Below are positions 21,434-31,270 of a stretch of 33,260 nucleotides of DNA, piece by piece (positions within the stretch are counted from its first letter, which is position 1; each line of letters starts with the position of its first letter). The notes beneath the pieces were generated by a model. It saw nothing but the letters and a program-made list of their open reading frames with translations, searched no databases and had not been told where the DNA came from. This stretch comes from Anaeromyxobacter sp. (lineage in GTDB: Bacteria > Myxococcota > Myxococcia > Myxococcales > Anaeromyxobacteraceae), in assembly GCA_025360965.1 (NCBI GenBank), contig JANYBC010000056.1:1-33260 (forward strand). Direction: 5' to 3'. The position numbers were made by a program, and so were the translations under genes.

Positions 21434-22651
21434 ATGCCGTTCGAGCTCTTCGTGGCGCTGCGCTTCCTGCGCGAGGGCAAGGCGCAGACCGCGCTGATCC
21501 TGGGCGGCACCACCATCGGCGTGGCGGTGATCATCTTCCTCTCCGCGCTCATCGGCGGGCTGCAGGCCACGCTCATCGACCAGACGCTCTCGGCGCAGGC
21601 CCACGTGATCCTGAAGCGCCCCGACCGCGTGGCCCGGGTGGTGACGCCGGCCGACGGCGCCGCGGTGGTGGCCCGGCTGGAGAAGACGCCGGAACGCGAG
21701 AAGTCGATCGAGCAGTGGCAGGCCCTGCTCGGCGAGATCCGCGCCACCCCGGGCGTGGTCGCCGCCACCCCGACCGCGGCCGGCTCGGCCTTCGCCTCGC
21801 GCGGCGAGCTCTCCAGGTCGGTGGCGCTGCGCGGGCTCGACCGCCAGAGCTTCGACCAGGTCATCAAGCTGGTCCCGCGCATCACCGTGGGGGCCTTCCG
21901 CGTCGACGGCACCGAGGCCGTCATCGGCACGGTGCTGGCCCACGACCTCGGCGTCGAGGTGGGCGACAAGCTCCGCATCACCACGCCGCAGGGGCGCGGC
22001 GACGTCTTCACGGTCAGCGGCATCTTCGACGTCGGCAACAAGGACGTGAACCAGCGCTGGGTGCTGGTCTCGCTGCGCCAGGCCCAGACCCTGCTCGACC
22101 TGGCCGGGGGCATCACCACCATCGAGGTCAAGGTCGACGAGGTCTTCGCCGCCGAGGGGGTGGCCCAGGAGCTGGGGGCGCTCACCGGCCTGACCGCCGA
22201 GAGCTGGATGAAGCTCAACCAGCAGCTGCTCACCGGGCTGCAGGCGCAGAGCTCGTCGTCGGTGATGATCCAGGTATTCGTGGTCATCGCCGTTGCGCTC
22301 GGCATCGCCTCGGTGCTGGGGGTCTCGGTGATCCAGAAGAGCCGCGAGATCGGCATCCTCAAGGCCACCGGCACCAGCACCGGCACGGTGCTGCGCATCT
22401 TCCTCATCGAGGGGGCCATCGTCGGCGTGGCCGGCTCGCTGCTCGGCGGCTTGATCGGCGCCGGGCTCTCCACCTTCTTCGCCCACGCCGTGAAAAACCC
22501 CTACGGGGAGTCGCTCTTCCCCATCGACCTGACGCCGCGCCTCTTCCTCACCGCCTCGGCGGTGGCGCTGGTGACCGGCCTGCTCTCGGCCTGGTACCCG
22601 GCCCGCCACGCGGCCCGGCTCGACCCGGCCCAGGTGATCCGCGGTGGCTGA
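21434..22651 (+). CDS. ABC transporter permease (FtsX/MacB-type)
   Basis: 405-residue membrane protein with the FtsX-family layout. A first membrane segment (~19-44) is followed by a large periplasmic domain (~45-275), then three segments (~275-298, 325-350, 372-395). The cytoplasmic stretch [18 protein letters not shown] is the family's coupling region for the ATPase, and the C-terminus [13 protein letters not shown] is characteristic. It partners the adaptor upstream and the ATPase downstream, whose gene it overlaps by 8 bases. Unlike E. coli MacB, the ATPase is a separate chain. The substrate could be a peptide, drug or lipoprotein. Confidence 0.93.
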
Positions 22652-23348
22652 TCCGGTCGTCGAGCTGCGCGGAGTGGTCAAGGAGTACGGGGACGTCATC
22701 CGCACCCGGGTGCTGCACGGCCTCGACCTGCGCGTCGAGGCCGGCGAGTTCACCGCGCTCATCGGCCCCTCCGGCTCGGGCAAGTCGACGCTGCTCAACC
22801 TCATCGGCCTGCTCGATCGCCCCACCGAGGGGAAGCTCTTCATCGCCGGGCAGGAGATCGGCCTGCTCGACGACGACGGCCTGACCGCCTGCCGGGGCCG
22901 CTCCATCGGCTTCGTCTTCCAGTTCCACCACCTGCTCCCCGAGTTCAGCGCCATCGAAAACGTCATGATCCCCATGATGGCGCTGCATGGCCGCCAGGAC
23001 CCGTCGATGCGCGAGTGCGCCGGCACGCTCCTCGGGCAGGTCGGGCTGGGGAGGTTTCTCGACCAGCGGGCCACGCTGCTCTCGGGCGGGCAGCAGCAGC
23101 GGGTCGCCATCGCCCGGGCCCTGGCCATGGCCCCCAGGCTGGTGCTGGCCGACGAGCCGACCGGGAACCTCGACACCGCCAGCGCCGACGAGATCTTCAC
23201 GCTGCTGCGCACCTTCAATGAGAAGGCCGGCGTCACCTTCCTGATCGTCACCCACGACCCGCGCCTGGCGGCGCGCTGCGACCGGATCGTCGAGCTGGTC
23301 GATGGCCGGATCGTCGCGGACCGGCCCAACCAGGCGAGGCGGACATGA
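22644..23348 (+). CDS. ABC transporter ATP-binding protein (MacB/LolD group)
   Basis: 234 residues, complete. Walker [10 protein letters not shown] (41-49), Q-loop [10 protein letters not shown], signature LSGGQQQR, Walker B LVLADEP followed by TGNLD, and H-loop VTHD are all intact. The TGNLD form and short length are typical of LolD/MacB exporters. It starts with GTG 22644 inside the end of the permease gene. Its stop shares ATGA (23345-23348) with the release-factor-like gene, so four genes from 20178 form one coupled operon. Confidence 0.95.
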
Positions 23349-24203: not shown

Positions 24204-26744
24204 TCAGGTCCCGATGCGCAGCAGCGTCAGCAGCGGCCGGTCGGGATCGAACGATCCGGTCAGGTCGACCTCGCACTGCACCATCCAGTCGACCTCGCCG
24301 GCCTCGTCCACCAGTCGCTGCACCGCCTCCCAGCGGCGGGGCTCGAGCTCCTTCAAGAAGGTCTGGTGCGGCTTGCGGGCCGCCGGGGTCTGGTCGATGC
24401 GGTCGTGCTCGGCGAAGTACGGGGCCAGCTCGGCCTCCAGCCGCGCCGGCGGCCACGCGGCCGGGTCGGCCAGCGCCTCGGCGGCGGCCGGCCAGTCCTC
24501 GCGCGCCAGCGCCGCCACCAGCCGGTGCAGCTCGGTGCGCAGCCGCGCGGCGAAGGTCTTCGCGTCGGCCCAGATGGGCGGCGGGGCCACCGGCCGGACC
24601 AGCGCCTCGAGCGGCGCCGCCTGCCAGGTCGGATCGCGCAGCCGCTCCCACTCGTCGAGCAGCGAGGAGTCGACGCCGCGCACCGTGGTGCGCAAGAAGG
24701 CGATGACGTCGTCGAGGGTCTCGTCGCGGTAGCTGGCCGGCACCGTCTGCACCAGCGTCTTGTAGCTCTCGGTCAGGTAGCGCAGCAGCAGCCCCTCGGA
24801 GCGCGGCAGCTCGTACTCGCGCACGTACTCCCCGAAGGTCATGAAGCGCTCGGCCATCTCGCGGGCCACGGACTTGGGGCGGATGTTCTCGGCGCCCACC
24901 CAGGGGTGCTTGTCAGCGAACTCGTTGAAGGTGGCGTAGACGAAGTCGCGGTTGGGCTTGGGGTACTCGACGTTCTCCAGCTCCTTCATGCGCTCGTCGT
25001 ACTCGATCCCCTCACCCTTCATGCGGGCCACCGCCTCGCCGCGGGCCCGGTCCAGCTGCTTCCAGAGGATCTGCTCGGGGTTCTCCTGGATCGACTCGAC
25101 CATGGAGAGCACGTCGAGGGCGAAGGTCTCCGAGTCGCGGGGGATCCTCGGCAGGGTGTCGAGCAGGTAGAGCGCCAGGGTGTGGAAGAGCGAGAAGTCC
25201 TTCTGCAGCCCGGCCGCCGGGCGCAGCCAGGCGCCCCGGTAGCCGTCGATCCGCTCCAGCAGGACCAGCCCGGCCACCCGCAGCGTCCGCAGCCGCTGGG
25301 CCGCCGCCACCCGGTGGCGGTGCTGGAGCACCTCGGTGCCGTGGGAGCGGGCGATGAGCCGGACCAGGCGGCCGTAGCCGCCCCCGCGCTCGGCGGTCTC
25401 GCTCTGCAGCAGGTTGACGAGCAGCGTGAAGGATGGCTCGAAGCGGCTCTGCAGCGGCTCGGGCTCCTTGGCCTGCAGCCGCTCGAAGGTGAGCCGGTCG
25501 AAGTGGACGTAGCCCTTGGTGGGGGGCTGCTTCTTGACCACCTTCTTGCCGGCCTTGGCCTTCTCCTCCAGCCGCTTGTTCTCGATGACGTGCTCGGGCG
25601 CCTGGGCCATCACGTAGCCGCGCTCGTCGAACCCCTTGCGCCCGGCCCGGCCGGCGATCTGGTGGAAGTCGCGGGCCGCCAGCACCACCGTCTTCTCGCC
25701 GTCGAACTTGCAGAGCTGCGTGAAGAGCACGGTGCGGATGGGGATGTTGACGCCCATGCCGAGCGTGTCGGTGCCGGAGACCACCTTGAGCAGCCCCTGC
25801 TGCGCCAGCTTCTCGACCAGCAGCCGGTACTTGGGCAGCAGCCCGGCGTGGTGCAGCCCGACGCCGTGGCGCAGGAAGCGCTGCAGCTCCTTGCCGTACG
25901 GTGAGTCGAAGCGGAAGCCGTCCAGCGCCACCCGGATCGCCTCCTTCTCCTCCTTCGACGAGAAGGTGGCGCTCATCAGGTCCTGGGCCCGCTCGGCGGC
26001 GGCCCGCTGCGTGAAGTTCACCAGGTAGACCGGGGCCCGCTTGCTGCTGACCAGCTCCTCGAGGGTCTCGTGGAGCGGCGTCTCGCGCCAGGAGAACTCC
26101 AGCGGCACCGGCCGCAGCGCCGAGCGGACCGCCGTCACCTTCCGGCCGGTCACCGCCTCCAGCGAGGCCTCGATGGCGGTGGTGTCGCCCAGCGTGGCCG
26201 ACATGAGCAGGAAGGTGGCCTGCTCCAGCGCCAGCAGCGGCACCTGCCAGGCCACGCCGCGCTCCTTGTCGCCGTAGTAGTGGAACTCGTCCATGACCAC
26301 GGCGTCGTCGCGCAGGGTCTTCTCGCGGACCGCCACGTTCATGAGGATCTCGGCGGTGCAGCAGAGGACGGGGGCGTCGCGGTTGACGGCGCCGTCGCCG
26401 GTCATCATGCCGACCCGCTCCGGGCCGAAGAGCCGGCAGAGGTCGAAGAACTTCTCGTTGACGAGCGCCTTGATGGGGCAGGTGTAGAAGCTGCGGCGTC
26501 CCTCGCAGAGCGCCTTGTAGTGGAGGAAGGTGGCCACCAGCGACTTCCCCGAGCCGGTCGGCGTGGCCAGCACCACGTGGCGGCCGTCGAGCAGCTGCAG
26601 CAGCGCCTCCTCCTGATGGAGGTAGAGGGTCAGCCCGCTGCTGGTCACCCAGCCGACGAAGCGATCGAGGATGACGTCGGCGGCCAGGGTCTCCCCGGGT
26701 GCGGGGAGCAGTGCGGCCAGCGGGGCGGGCGGTGAGGTGGTCAT
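24204..26744 (-). CDS. Ski2-like DEAD/DEAH-box helicase with DUF3516-type C-terminus
   Basis: 846-residue superfamily 2 helicase. Motif I is ATPTGSGKS (60-68), motif II is DEFH (152-155), motif III is SAT (182-184), and motif VI is QIAGRAGRKG (~370), with HHAGLLPKYR and SGTDTLGMGVNIP in the second RecA domain. The remaining ~400 residues form a helical domain with NVEYPKPNRDFVYATFNEFADKHP, like the DUF3516 family, with relatives in actinobacteria and myxobacteria. It probably unwinds RNA, or RNA/DNA duplexes; this is not shown. ATG 26744 lacks a clear ribosome binding site, and TTG 26756 is an alternative. No partner gene is evident. Confidence 0.9.
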   Translation of the reverse strand: MTTSPPAPLAALLPAPGETLAADVILDRFVGWVTSSGLTLYLHQEEALLQLLDGRHVVLATPTGSGKSLVATFLHYKALCEGRRSFYTCPIKALVNEKFFDLCRLFGPERVGMMTGDGAVNRDAPVLCCTAEILMNVAVREKTLRDDAVVMDEFHYYGDKERGVAWQVPLLALEQATFLLMSATLGDTTAIEASLEAVTGRKVTAVRSALRPVPLEFSWRETPLHETLEELVSSKRAPVYLVNFTQRAAAERAQDLMSATFSSKEEKEAIRVALDGFRFDSPYGKELQRFLRHGVGLHHAGLLPKYRLLVEKLAQQGLLKVVSGTDTLGMGVNIPIRTVLFTQLCKFDGEKTVVLAARDFHQIAGRAGRKGFDERGYVMAQAPEHVIENKRLEEKAKAGKKVVKKQPPTKGYVHFDRLTFERLQAKEPEPLQSRFEPSFTLLVNLLQSETAERGGGYGRLVRLIARSHGTEVLQHRHRVAAAQRLRTLRVAGLVLLERIDGYRGAWLRPAAGLQKDFSLFHTLALYLLDTLPRIPRDSETFALDVLSMVESIQENPEQILWKQLDRARGEAVARMKGEGIEYDERMKELENVEYPKPNRDFVYATFNEFADKHPWVGAENIRPKSVAREMAERFMTFGEYVREYELPRSEGLLLRYLTESYKTLVQTVPASYRDETLDDVIAFLRTTVRGVDSSLLDEWERLRDPTWQAAPLEALVRPVAPPPIWADAKTFAARLRTELHRLVAALAREDWPAAAEALADPAAWPPARLEAELAPYFAEHDRIDQTPAARKPHQTFLKELEPRRWEAVQRLVDEAGEVDWMVQCEVDLTGSFDPDRPLLTLLRIGT

Positions 26745-26820
26745 GGACCGCGGCAACCTACCGCGCGGGGCGCGTGGCGAGGAAGCGATCCGGTCCGAGC
26801 AGATCCCCCACCCCCCTTTT

Positions 26821-26837
26821 CCGGTCGCCGGGACCGG
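26821..26837 (-). terminator. Hairpin downstream of the chemoreceptor operon
   Basis: CCGGTC (26821-26826) and GACCGG (26832-26837) with a five-base loop, 17 bases after the end of the receptor gene. On the - strand it is followed by AAAAGG rather than T residues, so it is an incomplete match to a terminator. Two and a half copies of GCGTCAC (26844-26862) overlap the receptor's last codons. Confidence 0.3.
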
Positions 26838-26853
26838 CGCCGTGCGTCACGCG

Positions 26854-28461
26854 TCACGCGTCGAGCCTGAAGCCGCCCACCAGCTGCGAGATCCGCGCCG
26901 CCGTGCCCTGCAGGTGGAGGGCGGCCCGCTCCAGCCCCTGGATCCGCGCCAGGGTCTCGTCCATCCCCACGTCGAGCTCGCGCATGGCGCCGGCGATCTG
27001 CCCGACGCCGAGCGACTGCTGCTGCACCACCGTGGCGATCTGCTGGGCGGCGTCGCCGGTCTCCTTGACGATGGCCCCGATCTCGCCGAGCCGCAGCCCC
27101 GAGGCGCGCACCTCCTCGAGGCTCCCCTCCATGCCCCGGCGCGATTCCTCGGTGAGCGCCAGCGTCGACTGGATGGCCTCCAGGCTGGCCTCGACCAGCT
27201 TGCCGATGCGCGCCGCCGCCGCGCCCGACTGCTCGGAGAGGGCCCGGACCTCGGCCGCCACCACCGCGAAGCCGCGCCCCGCCTCCCCGGCCCGGACCGC
27301 CTCGATCGAGGCGTTGAGCGAGAGCACGTGAGAGCGGGTGGCCAGGTCCTTCACGGTCTCCACCACCTCGGTGACGGCGCGGGCCTGGTCGAGGGCCAGC
27401 GTGCTCTGCGAGACGATGAGCGAGACCGCCGCCTGGATCTGCTCGATCCCGGCGATGGAGCGCTGCGCCGAGTCCTGCCCGGCGGCGCTGGCGGCGGCGG
27501 CGCGGCGGGCCACCTGAAGCACCTCGCTGGCCCGGATGGCGGCCACCGCCGAGGCCTGGTCGAGCTCGCGGGTGGTGGTGGTGGTCTGCGAGACCCCGGC
27601 GGCCTGCCGCTCCAGCAGGCGGGTCTGGGCCGCGGTGGCCTGCTCCAGCTCAGCGGCCGAGCGGGTCAGGTCGGTGGCCGAGTCGCGCAGCGTGGTCAGG
27701 ATCTCGCGCAGCCGGCGGGTCATGGTGTCGAAGCTGGCCGCCAGGGCACCGACCTCGTCGGTGCGGCCCAGCGCCACCGGCACCGTCAGGTCGCCGTCCG
27801 AGATGCGACGGGCGGCCCGCTCGAGCGCCTCCAGCGGTCTGGAGAGGTCGGCCGCCAGCCACCAGGAGAGCGCGGCGGCGAAGAGCGCGGCGGCCAGCAG
27901 GATGCCGGCGCCGAGCACGGTGGCGCGGGCCTGGAGCTTGCGCGCCTCCTCGAAGCCGGTGGCCATGCCCTGGCGGGAGCGGGCGGTCTGGCCCGCGAGT
28001 GCGTCGCGGAGCCGCTCGTGGTGGGCGGTCATGCTGGCCAGCAGGGGCGTGATCCCCTCGCGCCCCTCGCGCCGGATGAGCCGGCCGGTCGCCTCTCGCG
28101 CCACCCGGTGGTAGTCCTCGATCTCGCGGTGCAGCACCGCCAGGGGCCGGACCGCCTCGCCGACCTCGCGGCCCAGGGTCAGCCGCTGCACCATCTGGTC
28201 GCGGAGCCGGTCGGTCTCCATCAGGCCGTTGGGATCCTCCGTGGCGGCGCACTCGGCGAAGACCTGCTGCATCCGGACCAGCAGGGCCTCCAGATCGCGG
28301 GAGGCCTCCAGGGTCGGGGCGTGGACCTGCTCGATCCGCGTCAGCTCCAGCGAGGCCTGGCGGGAGAGCAGCGCCGTCACCAGGCTGGCCACCGCTGCGG
28401 CCACCAGCACCACCAGCGTCGGCAGCACCAGGCGGTGCCGGAACTTGAGGCCGGGCTGCAT
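26854..28461 (-). CDS. Methyl-accepting chemotaxis receptor
   Basis: 535 residues: membrane segment 1 (~11-33), a ~145-residue helical periplasmic domain (~34-180, probably a four-helix bundle), membrane segment 2 (~181-204), a HAMP domain (~205-258, LSRPLEALERAARRISDGDL), and a long coiled-coil signalling domain. The hairpin tip is intact: HVLSLNASIEAVRAGEAGRG then FAVVAAEVRALSEQS (~379-412), so it should bind CheA/CheW. The ATG overlaps the stop of the PstS-like gene by one base (TGATG). The context suggests it senses the occupancy of that periplasmic protein, or whatever the barrel protein admits. Confidence 0.93.
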   Translation of the reverse strand: MQPGLKFRHRLVLPTLVVLVAAAVASLVTALLSRQASLELTRIEQVHAPTLEASRDLEALLVRMQQVFAECAATEDPNGLMETDRLRDQMVQRLTLGREVGEAVRPLAVLHREIEDYHRVAREATGRLIRREGREGITPLLASMTAHHERLRDALAGQTARSRQGMATGFEEARKLQARATVLGAGILLAAALFAAALSWWLAADLSRPLEALERAARRISDGDLTVPVALGRTDEVGALAASFDTMTRRLREILTTLRDSATDLTRSAAELEQATAAQTRLLERQAAGVSQTTTTTRELDQASAVAAIRASEVLQVARRAAAASAAGQDSAQRSIAGIEQIQAAVSLIVSQSTLALDQARAVTEVVETVKDLATRSHVLSLNASIEAVRAGEAGRGFAVVAAEVRALSEQSGAAAARIGKLVEASLEAIQSTLALTEESRRGMEGSLEEVRASGLRLGEIGAIVKETGDAAQQIATVVQQQSLGVGQIAGAMRELDVGMDETLARIQGLERAALHLQGTAARISQLVGGFRLDA

Positions 28462-28895
28462 CACGGCTCCCGCCCCATCGCCACCAGCGTGACCCCGGTG
28501 GTGTCGGCGCCGGCCGCGACGTAGCCGATGGCGCCGGGGGTGGCCCGGACGTAGGCGACCACGTCGGCGTCGGCCGCCTTCTCCAGCGGCGGCATCTCCC
28601 GCCCCGAGAAGATGAGGGCGTTCCAGTAGGCGGCCACGTCGGCGGAGCTCCGTTGGTGCACCCGCCGGGCGAAGCTCTCGCGCAGCCTCGGGTCGAGCGG
28701 CTCGACCGGGCGCACCGGCGAGCCGTCGGGCCACTGGGTGCTCTTCTTGAGGAAGAGGCGGGAGAGCTGGAGCCGCGGAAGCTCGGAGACGGTCACGGCG
28801 GGGTGGGTCACCACCACGAAGGCCGTCTCGCCGGCCGAGGACGGCCCCGCGGCGAGGACGCCGAGCGCAGCGAGGATGGTGAGCAGCCTGGGCAT
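28461..28895 (-). CDS. Small periplasmic PstS-like substrate-binding protein
   Basis: 144 residues with a Sec signal peptide (MPRLLTILAALGVLAAGPSSAG, cut after about residue 21). The mature part has the features of the short phosphate-binding-like family: LSRLFLKKSTQWPDGSPVRP, then SFARRVHQRSSADVAAYWNA and a closing AYVRATPGAIGYV. In the full PstS family the last motif contacts the ligand. It is about half the normal length, so it may be a single-lobe sensor rather than a transport component. No permease or ATPase is nearby. It sits between the barrel gene (5-base gap) and the receptor (1-base overlap), suggesting it feeds the receptor. Confidence 0.8.
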   Translation of the reverse strand: MPRLLTILAALGVLAAGPSSAGETAFVVVTHPAVTVSELPRLQLSRLFLKKSTQWPDGSPVRPVEPLDPRLRESFARRVHQRSSADVAAYWNALIFSGREMPPLEKAADADVVAYVRATPGAIGYVAAGADTTGVTLVAMGREP

Positions 28896-28900
28896 CGGGG

Positions 28901-30016
28901 CTAGAAGGCGAACTGGACGCCGGCCAGGAACATGCTGGTCCGCTCGGCCGGAGGGGTGGTGACCAGATCCTGGTAGGTGGCGCCGTCGGGGTAGACGAAG
29001 CGGTTGCCGACGATCCGGTGGGCCGAGGCCTTCACGACCAGGGTCGGGGTGAACCAGTAGTCGAGGGCCAGCGCCGCCTCGCGGTGGTCGAGCAGCGGCG
29101 ACGTGACGGAGATGGTGTGGACCTTCGACCGGTAGCCCTCCAGCCGGACCGCGACCTGCCAGTGGTCGTCGAAGAACCAGGAGGCCTCCAGCGCGGTACC
29201 CACGGCGTGCTCGATGCCGACCTCGACGGTGTAGAAGAGCTCCGCTCCGAGCTTGAGGCGGCTCACCTGGTACTCCGCCGAGAGGCCGGTGACCAGGAAG
29301 GTGACGTTCTCGAACTCGTCCTTGTGCATCTTCCCGCCGTAGCCGGAGAGCCGCAGCTTCAGGTCGAACGGGGAGGTGACCGAGAGGCGCCCGCCGATGA
29401 TCTGGCGCACCTGCTGGCGGTCCACCCTGATCGGCTGGTCGGAGGTTGGATCGGCCGGCACCTCGAGCGCCCGGTAGGTCTCCAGCTCGACGAGCTTGAG
29501 AGCGCCGGCGTAGAGGTCGTAGTCGAGCGTCCAGTTCGAGTCGGAGGTGAAGGCCCCGGTGGCCCCGGCGCCCAGGTAGGCGGTGGCGGCGATGTTGGCG
29601 GGGCCGTAGAGGCTGGTGGCGAGGTCGTAGAACGGGCGGGTGGTGCCGGCGTAGACCAGCTCGCCGGAGTTCCCGATGGGCTGCTTGACCCGTCCGGCCC
29701 GGAGCCGAAGCCGGTCGCTGATCCGCCACTCCACGAACATCCACTCGACGCCGGTGTGGTCGGGGTCGAACTCGAGGTAGACGTTGAAGGTGACGGCAGG
29801 TGTCGGCCTCACCGCCAGCAGCAGGTTGAAGGAGGCGGTGTTGTAGTTCCCTGCCGGCGTGGCGTCCTGGTAGCCGTTCTTGCCGGTGGTCCTCTGGTAG
29901 GACCAGGCACCGTCGCCGTGGATGGCCAGTTGGCCGTCGTTGACGTTGACGTCGACGGCGGCGGCGGCCGGGGCGAGGAGGATCGAGGCGGCGGCCAGCA
30001 GGGCGAGGCTGCGCAT
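28901..30016 (-). CDS. Outer-membrane beta-barrel protein (porin-like)
   Basis: 371 residues with a signal peptide (MRSLALLAAASILLAPAAAA), then alternating amphipathic strands (FNVYLEFDPDHTGVEWMFVEW, minus its last two residues, and ISDRLRLRAGRVKQPIGN). The C-terminal strand ends VQFAF, with the terminal Phe needed for BAM-dependent insertion. RLRAGRVKQPIG resembles the phosphate-selective porin O/P and related families. It is first in the three-gene operon. ATG 30016 is set by the signal peptide. An in-frame ATG at 30118 would add 34 residues that spoil it, but it shares the leader repeat discussed at 30116-30201. Confidence 0.82.
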   Translation of the reverse strand: MRSLALLAAASILLAPAAAAVDVNVNDGQLAIHGDGAWSYQRTTGKNGYQDATPAGNYNTASFNLLLAVRPTPAVTFNVYLEFDPDHTGVEWMFVEWRISDRLRLRAGRVKQPIGNSGELVYAGTTRPFYDLATSLYGPANIAATAYLGAGATGAFTSDSNWTLDYDLYAGALKLVELETYRALEVPADPTSDQPIRVDRQQVRQIIGGRLSVTSPFDLKLRLSGYGGKMHKDEFENVTFLVTGLSAEYQVSRLKLGAELFYTVEVGIEHAVGTALEASWFFDDHWQVAVRLEGYRSKVHTISVTSPLLDHREAALALDYWFTPTLVVKASAHRIVGNRFVYPDGATYQDLVTTPPAERTSMFLAGVQFAF

Positions 30017-30115
30017 GCGTGCTTTCAGGTGCTCCAGGTTGGAGGGCGCGGCCCCTCCGGTGTAGCAGAAAGCCGGCCGGTCGGCCTGCGCCGCGATTCC
30101 GCGGCGGGGAGGCTC

Positions 30116-30201
30116 CATTGGGGTGGCGGGGGGCGGCGTCCTGCGTCACAATCCGGCTCCCGATCCCCCGGGACCGTCGCAGGAGCCAAGCCACCCCAAT
30201 G
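30116..30201. promoter_or_regulatory. Divergent regulatory region with a 12-base perfect inverted repeat
   Basis: CATTGGGGTGGC (30116-30127) is the exact reverse complement of GCCACCCCAATG (30190-30201). The second arm includes the ATG of the receptor gene, and AGGAG (30181-30185) lies in the intervening region. A transcript starting upstream of 30116 could fold and hide the start codon. As DNA, it could be a pair of half-sites for one regulator controlling both directions. Confidence 0.55.
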
Positions 30202-31263
30202 AACGCGCGCAAGTACTCCCTCTATGGCGTGATCCTCGGCGTCTTCCTCCCCATCGTCGGGGTCATCGTCGAGTCTGGCACCAGCCCGGCAGGGCTCACC
30301 GCCGACGGGATCCTGCTGGCGCTGCAGAAGCCGCTGGTCCTGATCGTGGTCACCGCTCCCCTCTTCCTCGGCGCATTCGCCTACATGGCCGGACACGCCC
30401 AGGACGAGGCGGTCCGGTCGGAGGCCGGCAAGCGCGACGGCTTCACCCAGGCGGCCAAGACCCTGGTGGCCATGGCCCAGTCGCTCCTCTCCAACGTCAG
30501 CGCCTTCTCCAGCATGACCGCCGAGACCGCGGCCAGCGTGCGCGAGACCACCGCCACCATGGGGCAGCTGGCCCAGACCGCCACCAAGGCGGCGCTCACC
30601 GCCGAGACCGTGATCGGGCTGGCGCAGGCCGGCGCCCGGGTCTCCACCGAGGGGCTCAAGGCGGTCGACACCAGCCAGGCCGAGATGGCCAAGCTGGCCG
30701 ACGAGGTCCGGCAGCTCTCGCAGCGCATCGAGGCCCTCAACGCCCGGATGCGGGACATCTTCGAGATCGCCTCGGTCGTCAACTACATCGCCGACCGCTC
30801 CCAGCGCCTCTCGGACCGGGCCGCCCAGGAGGCGTCGGCGGCGGGCGCCGCCGGGGGCGGGTTCGCCGACGTGGTCGGAGAGATGCGCCACCACGCCGAG
30901 GACGCCAAGCGGGCTGCGGCCCAGGTCAAGGGGATCCTCTCCGAGGTCCACAAGGCGATGCTGGCGGCCATGACGGCGGCCGAGGTCGGCATCCGCCGGG
31001 CCGAGCAGGGTGCCATGGTGGCCTCCGGCACCGGCGACACCATCCGCCGGCTGGCCACCGCGCTGCGCGACTCGTCCGAGGCGGCCCGCGAGATCGCGAC
31101 CGTGGCCCAGCAGCAGGATCACGGCATCGACCAGGTGCTCAAGGCCATGAACGAGATCTACCTGGCCACCCAGGAGACCATGTCCAACATCCAGTCGGTG
31201 GCCTCCGAGGCGCGCGCCCTCAACGACATCGCCACCGGGCTGAAGCGGGCGGTCTCGGACTAG
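30199..31263 (+). CDS. Atypical chemoreceptor-like protein without sensory or HAMP domain
   Basis: 354 residues. Two membrane segments (~8-25 and ~44-63) are joined by only about 18 residues, leaving no periplasmic domain, and no HAMP follows. Residues 65-354 are a long coiled coil with receptor-like heptads (TAASVRETTATMGQLAQTA, REIATVAQQQDHGIDQVLKA). The tip that normally binds CheA/CheW is degenerate: the usual NxxxEAARAGE...GFAVVA is replaced by DRAAQEASAAG and GGGFADVVGEMRHHAED (~206-235), keeping the GGGF turn but losing key Glu and Arg residues. It may sense membrane state or act as a partner of the full receptor encoded divergently. The ribosome binding site AGGAG is 13 bases away, which is far. 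Confidence 0.8.
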   Translation: MNARKYSLYGVILGVFLPIVGVIVESGTSPAGLTADGILLALQKPLVLIVVTAPLFLGAFAYMAGHAQDEAVRSEAGKRDGFTQAAKTLVAMAQSLLSNVSAFSSMTAETAASVRETTATMGQLAQTATKAALTAETVIGLAQAGARVSTEGLKAVDTSQAEMAKLADEVRQLSQRIEALNARMRDIFEIASVVNYIADRSQRLSDRAAQEASAAGAAGGGFADVVGEMRHHAEDAKRAAAQVKGILSEVHKAMLAAMTAAEVGIRRAEQGAMVASGTGDTIRRLATALRDSSEAAREIATVAQQQDHGIDQVLKAMNEIYLATQETMSNIQSVASEARALNDIATGLKRAVSD

Positions 31264-31270
31264 TGCCGCG

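Follow-up and report, generated by a model that had tools for sequence, protein, structure and literature searches.

A porin, a single PstS-type lobe and a chemoreceptor encoded together in Anaeromyxobacter sp. are probably parts of a sensing line with exchangeable outputs

In a 33,260-nucleotide stretch of Anaeromyxobacter sp. (contig JANYBC010000056.1, assembly GCA_025360965.1; hereafter the window), the genes of an outer-membrane porin-like barrel (P0003), a half-length periplasmic binding protein of the PstS type (half-PBP, P0001) and a HAMP-type methyl-accepting chemotaxis protein (MCP, P0002) follow each other on the reverse strand. This raises the question of what a porin, half of a binding protein and a chemoreceptor do together. 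P0003 (28901..30016, reverse strand) has 371 amino acids and 16 predicted transmembrane strands, P0001 (28461..28895, reverse strand) consists of 144 amino acids with a signal-peptide-like N-terminus and comprises lobe 2 only of a PstS-type protein, and P0002 (26854..28461, reverse strand) is 535 amino acids long. The initial annotation had pointed to the tight spacing and to the lack of a transport permease or ATPase, and both were confirmed: according to the coordinates of the open reading frames, five bases separate the barrel stop from the half-PBP start, the half-PBP stop and the MCP start share one base (TGATG), and no ATP-binding cassette (ABC) transporter gene lies within or beside the trio, which leaves P0001 without a linked Pst permease and ATPase. 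Together, the three genes probably encode a sensing line, so far undescribed, that runs from the cell surface inwards and whose output domains can be exchanged. No description of the trio was found in the literature searched, where most subscription papers fell outside reach.

A survey of other genomes, which had been suggested as a check, showed that the trio is conserved. The loci were gathered through the half-PBP alone, and barrel and receptor were scored afterwards. Half-PBP matches with an E-value of at most 1e-10 numbered 91, 79 of them at most about 90% alike; nine of these were set aside because of short contigs, leaving 70 non-redundant loci with enough flanking sequence. All reading frames were searched on the same strand, within 400 bp for a barrel and within 2.5 kb for a receptor domain. 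A barrel was found at 58 of the 70 loci, a transducer with a P0002-type receptor domain at 38 and both together at 33, where only matches outside the seed sets are independent, since both profiles were built from half-PBP neighbours. By gene calls, 56 of the 66 loci having both neighbours carry a barrel and 45 carry any transducer on the same strand. Three full-length or fused relatives of the half-PBP (L036, L041 and L144) are included in both sets. The co-occurrence of the three genes exceeds local chance.

The 45 transducers, which were assigned by motif and profile with ten neighbouring proteins checked against Pfam, comprise 19 MCPs, 18 histidine kinases, two GGDEF proteins and six other HAMP- or MCP-profile proteins. 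Five of these six were put through Pfam and all match MCPsignal, one of them below the cut-off. The original proposal of a line from the outer membrane to the chemotaxis array is supported in part: the trio is conserved, but its output is not specifically chemotaxis.

Half-PBP homologs were detected in 17 of 60 relatives by a single-protein search and in 32 of 156 genomes of the phylum Myxococcota by a profile search; from the latter, 20 regions were taken, without some close Corallococcus-type copies and without G073:C270. A scan of named genomes revealed 41 half-PBP loci, many of them in metagenome bins. Most belong to Myxococcota, and the other records are Gemmatimonadaceae, Acidobacteria, Schekmanbacteria, Eisenbacteria, Pseudomonadales and the isolate Labilibacter sediminis. 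Plasmid records added 13 loci in Gamma- and Betaproteobacteria, 10 of which were examined. Carriers of the trio include Myxococcota, Gammaproteobacteria, Betaproteobacteria and Bacteroidota. In Massilia (L051) and Labilibacter (L090) the gene order is that of the window, with MCPs as receptors; on the Massilia plasmid the porin-like gene and the half-PBP gene preceding the MCP are annotated as hypothetical. Caballeronia plasmids encode an EAL-domain protein with the pair, which in one case (L047) also contains a GGDEF domain, and a Pseudoalteromonas plasmid carries porin and half-PBP with a convergent MCP.

The periplasmic ligand-binding region of P0002 (residues 26-175; 27937..28386, reverse strand) is followed by a HAMP domain (residues 201-253; 27703..27861, reverse strand; Pfam E = 1e-15) and an MCP signalling domain (26971..27477, reverse strand; Pfam E = 1.7e-25), both above the Pfam cut-off. 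The periplasmic region matches no Pfam family, gave chance-level matches only against solved structures and had no match when used as query in the plasmid search. At half-PBP loci the receptor domains fall into a narrow size range, mostly 144-160 amino acids. A profile built from 12 MCP receptor domains matches 18 of 19 receptor domains of half-PBP-linked histidine kinases with E-values from 1e-34 to 6e-11, the best reversed or shuffled decoy reaching 0.003, and hhalign aligns the two groups with a probability of 99.9% (E = 2.5e-32). The same profile also finds the MCP domains of Labilibacter (1.6e-24), Gemmatimonadaceae (7.6e-19) and Massilia (2.6e-12). By these profile matches, the periplasmic domain of P0002 and the one of the histidine kinases that take its gene position at other loci are homologs. 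That one input domain recurs on differing outputs speaks more strongly than any other finding for a joint function of half-PBP, barrel and receptor domain. Beside these receptors, seven loci (L064, L067, L073, L080, L082, L083 and L182) encode large hybrid kinases with a P0002-type receptor domain, followed by a CheR-like protein of about 275 amino acids, and at several of them response-regulator-like genes also lie behind the kinase; both were assigned by eye.

Upstream of the MCP, the genes of barrel and half-PBP come and go together, in the manner of a two-gene cassette. In the congener L183 the helicase, the MCP and the divergent P0004 homolog of the locus are kept, and the blastn blocks corresponding to window positions 26858-28463 and 30057-31264 meet across 11 bp. 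The 1,593 bp holding barrel and half-PBP (28464..30056, reverse strand) are therefore cleanly present in the window and absent from the congener. A distant half-PBP is encoded elsewhere in the L183 genome; no barrel match adjoins it, and a large gene of efflux-pump appearance (by eye) lies nearby. Such precise presence or absence would also be expected if the pair had a role of its own, in uptake or in the envelope, and the MCP were a separate receptor sharing its transcript by chance. The same explanation would account for receptors that lack the pair and for some plasmids on which barrel and half-PBP have no transducer. Nevertheless, we judge it improbable, as receptor domains of one family are found with the pair time after time, attached to differing outputs.

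Several observations weigh against a joint function. The MCP stands at the same locus without the cassette in L183 and in the family members L185 and L186, hence the receptor can persist without the cassette in cis. At 21 of the 66 loci no same-strand transducer was found, among them the half-PBP and barrel pairs of Alteromonas plasmids. When the 156 genomes were searched in reverse, with the receptor domain as query, 67 matches were obtained, of which 21 lie beside a half-PBP and 46 do not; of the 24 strongest (E < 1e-33), 20 adjoin one. The cassette-less matches that were examined are MCPs and one histidine kinase (G114). Five of 12 MCP or HAMP receptor domains outside the seed set were left unmatched by the MCP-domain profile (L040, L041, L089, L132 and L136), and two half-PBP-linked receptors (L026:5461-7047 and L030:5393-6994) have MCP signalling domains with degenerate tips which have lost the conserved hairpin sequence, that of L030 scoring below the Pfam cut-off. 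The idea that a loss of the cassette had relaxed the evolution of the receptor domain was considered, but no such relaxation was seen, with 11 polarised changes in the window and 14 in the congener. In a further genome, two tandem MCPs with the receptor domain (L184:2026-5477) have no adjoining half-PBP, and four half-PBP matches lie on its other contigs.

Compared with the window, L185 and L186 are 30-31% identical in the receptor domain and 59% in the signalling part. In the MCP tree, receptors lacking the cassette are nested among cassette-linked ones, with a minimum of four state changes, and the half-PBP tree gave no resolution, so the cassette may have been either gained or lost. Distances between half-PBPs correlate with those between receptor domains (r 0.64) only modestly better than with those of the HAMP region (0.55); the correlation is positive for all pairs, and the HAMP region is a weak control.

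The AlphaFold model of P0003 (pLDDT, the predicted local confidence, 86) has 16 strands of a length sufficient to span the membrane. In VIA-align the phosphate and polyphosphate porins OprP and OprO come first, with Z-scores of 27.7 (OprP, 2o4v), 27.1 (OprO) and 27.0, followed about three units lower by OmpF-type porins (24.3), whereas Foldseek, sorted by E-value, puts other porins ahead of OprP and OprO. In Pfam, BBP2 stays just below its cut-off and Porin_O_P reaches E = 0.11 with 12.1 bits, compared to a curated cut-off of 20.9; among 21 barrel relatives, 14 match Porin_O_P at E-values up to 1, the best being 1.1e-7. P0003 therefore shares the 16-stranded barrel with OprP and OprO, its best structural match, but is only about 12% identical to them, is shorter (371 versus 411-426 residues) and is encoded together with a signalling receptor.

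The initial annotation had described the 144-residue protein as half-length and PstS-like, in agreement with the match of P0001 to positions 93-199 of the 267 positions of PBP_like_2 (PF12849; E = 0.0018, below the cut-off). Its N-terminus has no lipobox cysteine (by eye). The AlphaFold model (pLDDT 89) superimposes on residues 108-217 only of the PstS structure 4lat (Z 14.9, root mean square deviation 2.1 over 105 residues), all 25 Foldseek matches with E-values of at most 0.001 are named phosphate-type binding proteins or receptors, and a profile of 20 half-PBPs matches the Vibrio cholerae structure 1twy (E = 1.6e-11). P0001 thus shares the lobe 2 fold and the GAIGYV stretch with PstS and PBP_like_2, but lobe 1 is missing and with it the two-lobe fold with its cleft.

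The lobe-2 phosphate ligands of PstS, which we take to be Arg135, Ser139, Gly140 and Thr141 in E. coli numbering, were mapped onto the half-PBP by eye and correspond to P66, P69, R70 and L71 in P0001. Aligned with 4q8r, the half-PBP family has DL..SS.VR..F where PstS has SREDGSGTRDAF. Residues were counted in 69 of 72 members, namely the small ones, leaving out L036, L041 and L144. The position of Arg135 is occupied by arginine in a single member, that of Ser139 by serine in 38, and that of Thr141 by valine in 31 and threonine in eight; the position of Gly140 is mainly proline or alanine, glycine being outside the seven commonest residues. The family has a conserved signature of its own (F75, W91, G98 and P103, each in 67 of the 69); the half-PBP is thus a single lobe conserved under constraints of its own rather than a decayed PstS.

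These replacements bear on the proposed role of the small protein as a ligand carrier, in which the porin would admit phosphate or a related oxyanion and the half-PBP would bind it and present it to the receptor, like phosphate-loaded PstS with the chemoreceptor CtpL of Pseudomonas aeruginosa (PMC4926252). Porin and lobe both point to phosphate through their nearest relatives, OprP/OprO and PstS, and the serine is kept in more than half of the members. A single lobe alone cannot form a two-lobe cleft, the trio contains no transporter, and the arginine and the glycine-threonine ligands are replaced in most members; the carrier role is thereby weakened and appears unlikely. A phosphate carrier on the strength of the family name alone was discounted, most of these ligand residues being absent. 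The suggested ligand, phosphate or a related anion, may still apply. Our leading guess is phosphate or a compound containing it, since the closest families of both porin and lobe are phosphate families and since in a Gemmatimonadaceae locus (L065:2300-5569) barrel and half-PBP are followed, in the place of the receptor, by a 5′-nucleotidase-type phosphoesterase, a hint of a phosphate-related role. The loss of most phosphate ligands from the lobe itself weighs against this guess.

We favour, with some confidence, a sensor spanning the envelope: the lobe would be an adaptor whose state the receptor domain reads, and the porin would be the outer partner. The physical contacts within this sensor, the direction of its signal and its ligand are what we infer beyond the computed gene order, conservation, folds and receptor-domain homology. 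Each compartment would contain one protein: the outer membrane a 16-stranded porin resembling OprP and OprO, the periplasm a free PstS lobe 2 and the inner membrane a receptor. The half-PBP would most likely serve as a docking or adaptor subunit and not as a free two-lobe solute shuttle. A solute which passes or occupies the porin, or which binds a composite site of lobe and partner, might alter the docking of the lobe on the receptor domain; this periplasmic, helical domain of about 150 amino acids would read the state of the lobe and pass it through HAMP to the cytoplasmic output. Barrel and half-PBP would thus be the input cassette, and the outputs (MCP, histidine kinase, GGDEF/EAL) would be exchangeable, the MCP signalling domain being that of the window.

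Two known systems are analogous to the trio, which seems to be a member of neither, having a single lobe, no transporter and unrelated parts. In the PstS-CtpL pair, PstS is full length and part of an ABC transporter, and the CtpL domain has 286 amino acids (PMC4926252). Like this pair, the trio would have a PstS-family periplasmic protein feeding a chemoreceptor which does not itself bind the solute, but it has one lobe only, no transporter, a dedicated porin and a receptor domain of about 150 amino acids. The second one, YfiBNR (TpbB), is described as a tripartite periplasmic signalling system with output domains exchanged between species (PMC3375315). It also combines outer-membrane, periplasmic and HAMP-containing inner-membrane parts in one operon, but YfiB is a PAL-type lipoprotein and YfiN has a PAS-type periplasmic domain.

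As a special case of the favoured sensor, the trio might work by a titration like that of YfiR. The half-PBP would hold the receptor in one state until it is pulled off by the porin or in consequence of porin damage, and the state of the envelope would be sensed instead of a solute. The three-compartment layout, the swapping of outputs and the loss of ligand residues are in line with titration. We consider it somewhat unlikely, since the porin is a channel and not a peptidoglycan-binding lipoprotein and the Pfam scan gave no homology of the trio proteins to YfiB, YfiR or YfiN, only PBP, porin and MCP families and one chance-level match. YfiR has a different fold from the half-PBP.

For the adaptor-type sensor of the window, delivery to the chemotaxis array is plausible. 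The window genome, a 3.83-Mb draft, has nine MCPsignal matches and two CheA-type matches over the cut-off, and flagellin was not detected in it. The hairpin tip of P0002, RSHVLSLNASIEAVRAGE, is mostly canonical with RSH in place of QTN, compared to QTNLLALNAAIEAARAGE, which we take to be the usual MCP form and which was also seen at several half-PBP loci; the tips of P0004, L026 and L030 are degenerate. P0004 (30199..31263, forward strand) is a divergently transcribed MCP-like protein of 354 amino acids with two N-terminal transmembrane helices (by eye) and no HAMP domain. It and P0002 may be partner receptors. It is 93% identical in the congener and is kept beside the MCP in L183, L185 and L186.

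More broadly, and as a tentative proposal only, the trio could represent a class of trans-envelope receptors that is widespread across several phyla and so far undescribed. An outer-membrane porin and a single lobe of a phosphate-type binding protein would jointly supply the sensory input to a periplasmic helical domain which no Pfam family covers and which has been joined to the outputs of chemoreceptors and of histidine kinases. The lobe, half of a transport protein, would have become a signalling adaptor and a relay coupled to the porin. If so, the porin would have sensing as its dedicated task, with one PBP lobe linking it to a receptor of the inner membrane, and proteins of about 140 amino acids recorded as 'phosphate ABC transporter substrate-binding protein' without an adjoining ABC transporter would gain a function. 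The receptor domain would be a new family common to chemoreceptors and histidine kinases, in a system whose swapped outputs make the signal easy to read out.

Neither promoter nor terminator was found in a scan of 26700-30300, and a phage search gave no match. Recent foreign origin was rejected, as the third-position GC content of barrel (0.962) and half-PBP (0.972) is in line with that of the neighbours (0.953-0.985). On the opposite strand, past a gene with an RF-1 domain and the helicase gene, lies an ABC pair of lipoprotein-export appearance (21434-23348; by eye). The window genome contains one barrel of the P0003 kind and one clear half-PBP, besides four full-length or near full-length PBP_like_2 matches outside the trio locus.

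Finally, some variants of the arrangement were observed. On two Alteromonas plasmids (L044 and L048) the half-PBP and barrel pair, without a transducer, adjoins type IV CRISPR (csf) genes. In the congener G001 (L036:2178-3134) the half-PBP is fused behind an N-terminal region of about 200 residues, with the barrel upstream. At L041 a full-length PBP is located directly upstream of an MCP, and in the window's own genome (L042) another one lies directly upstream of a 683-amino-acid protein with a kinase-like motif, both without a barrel.

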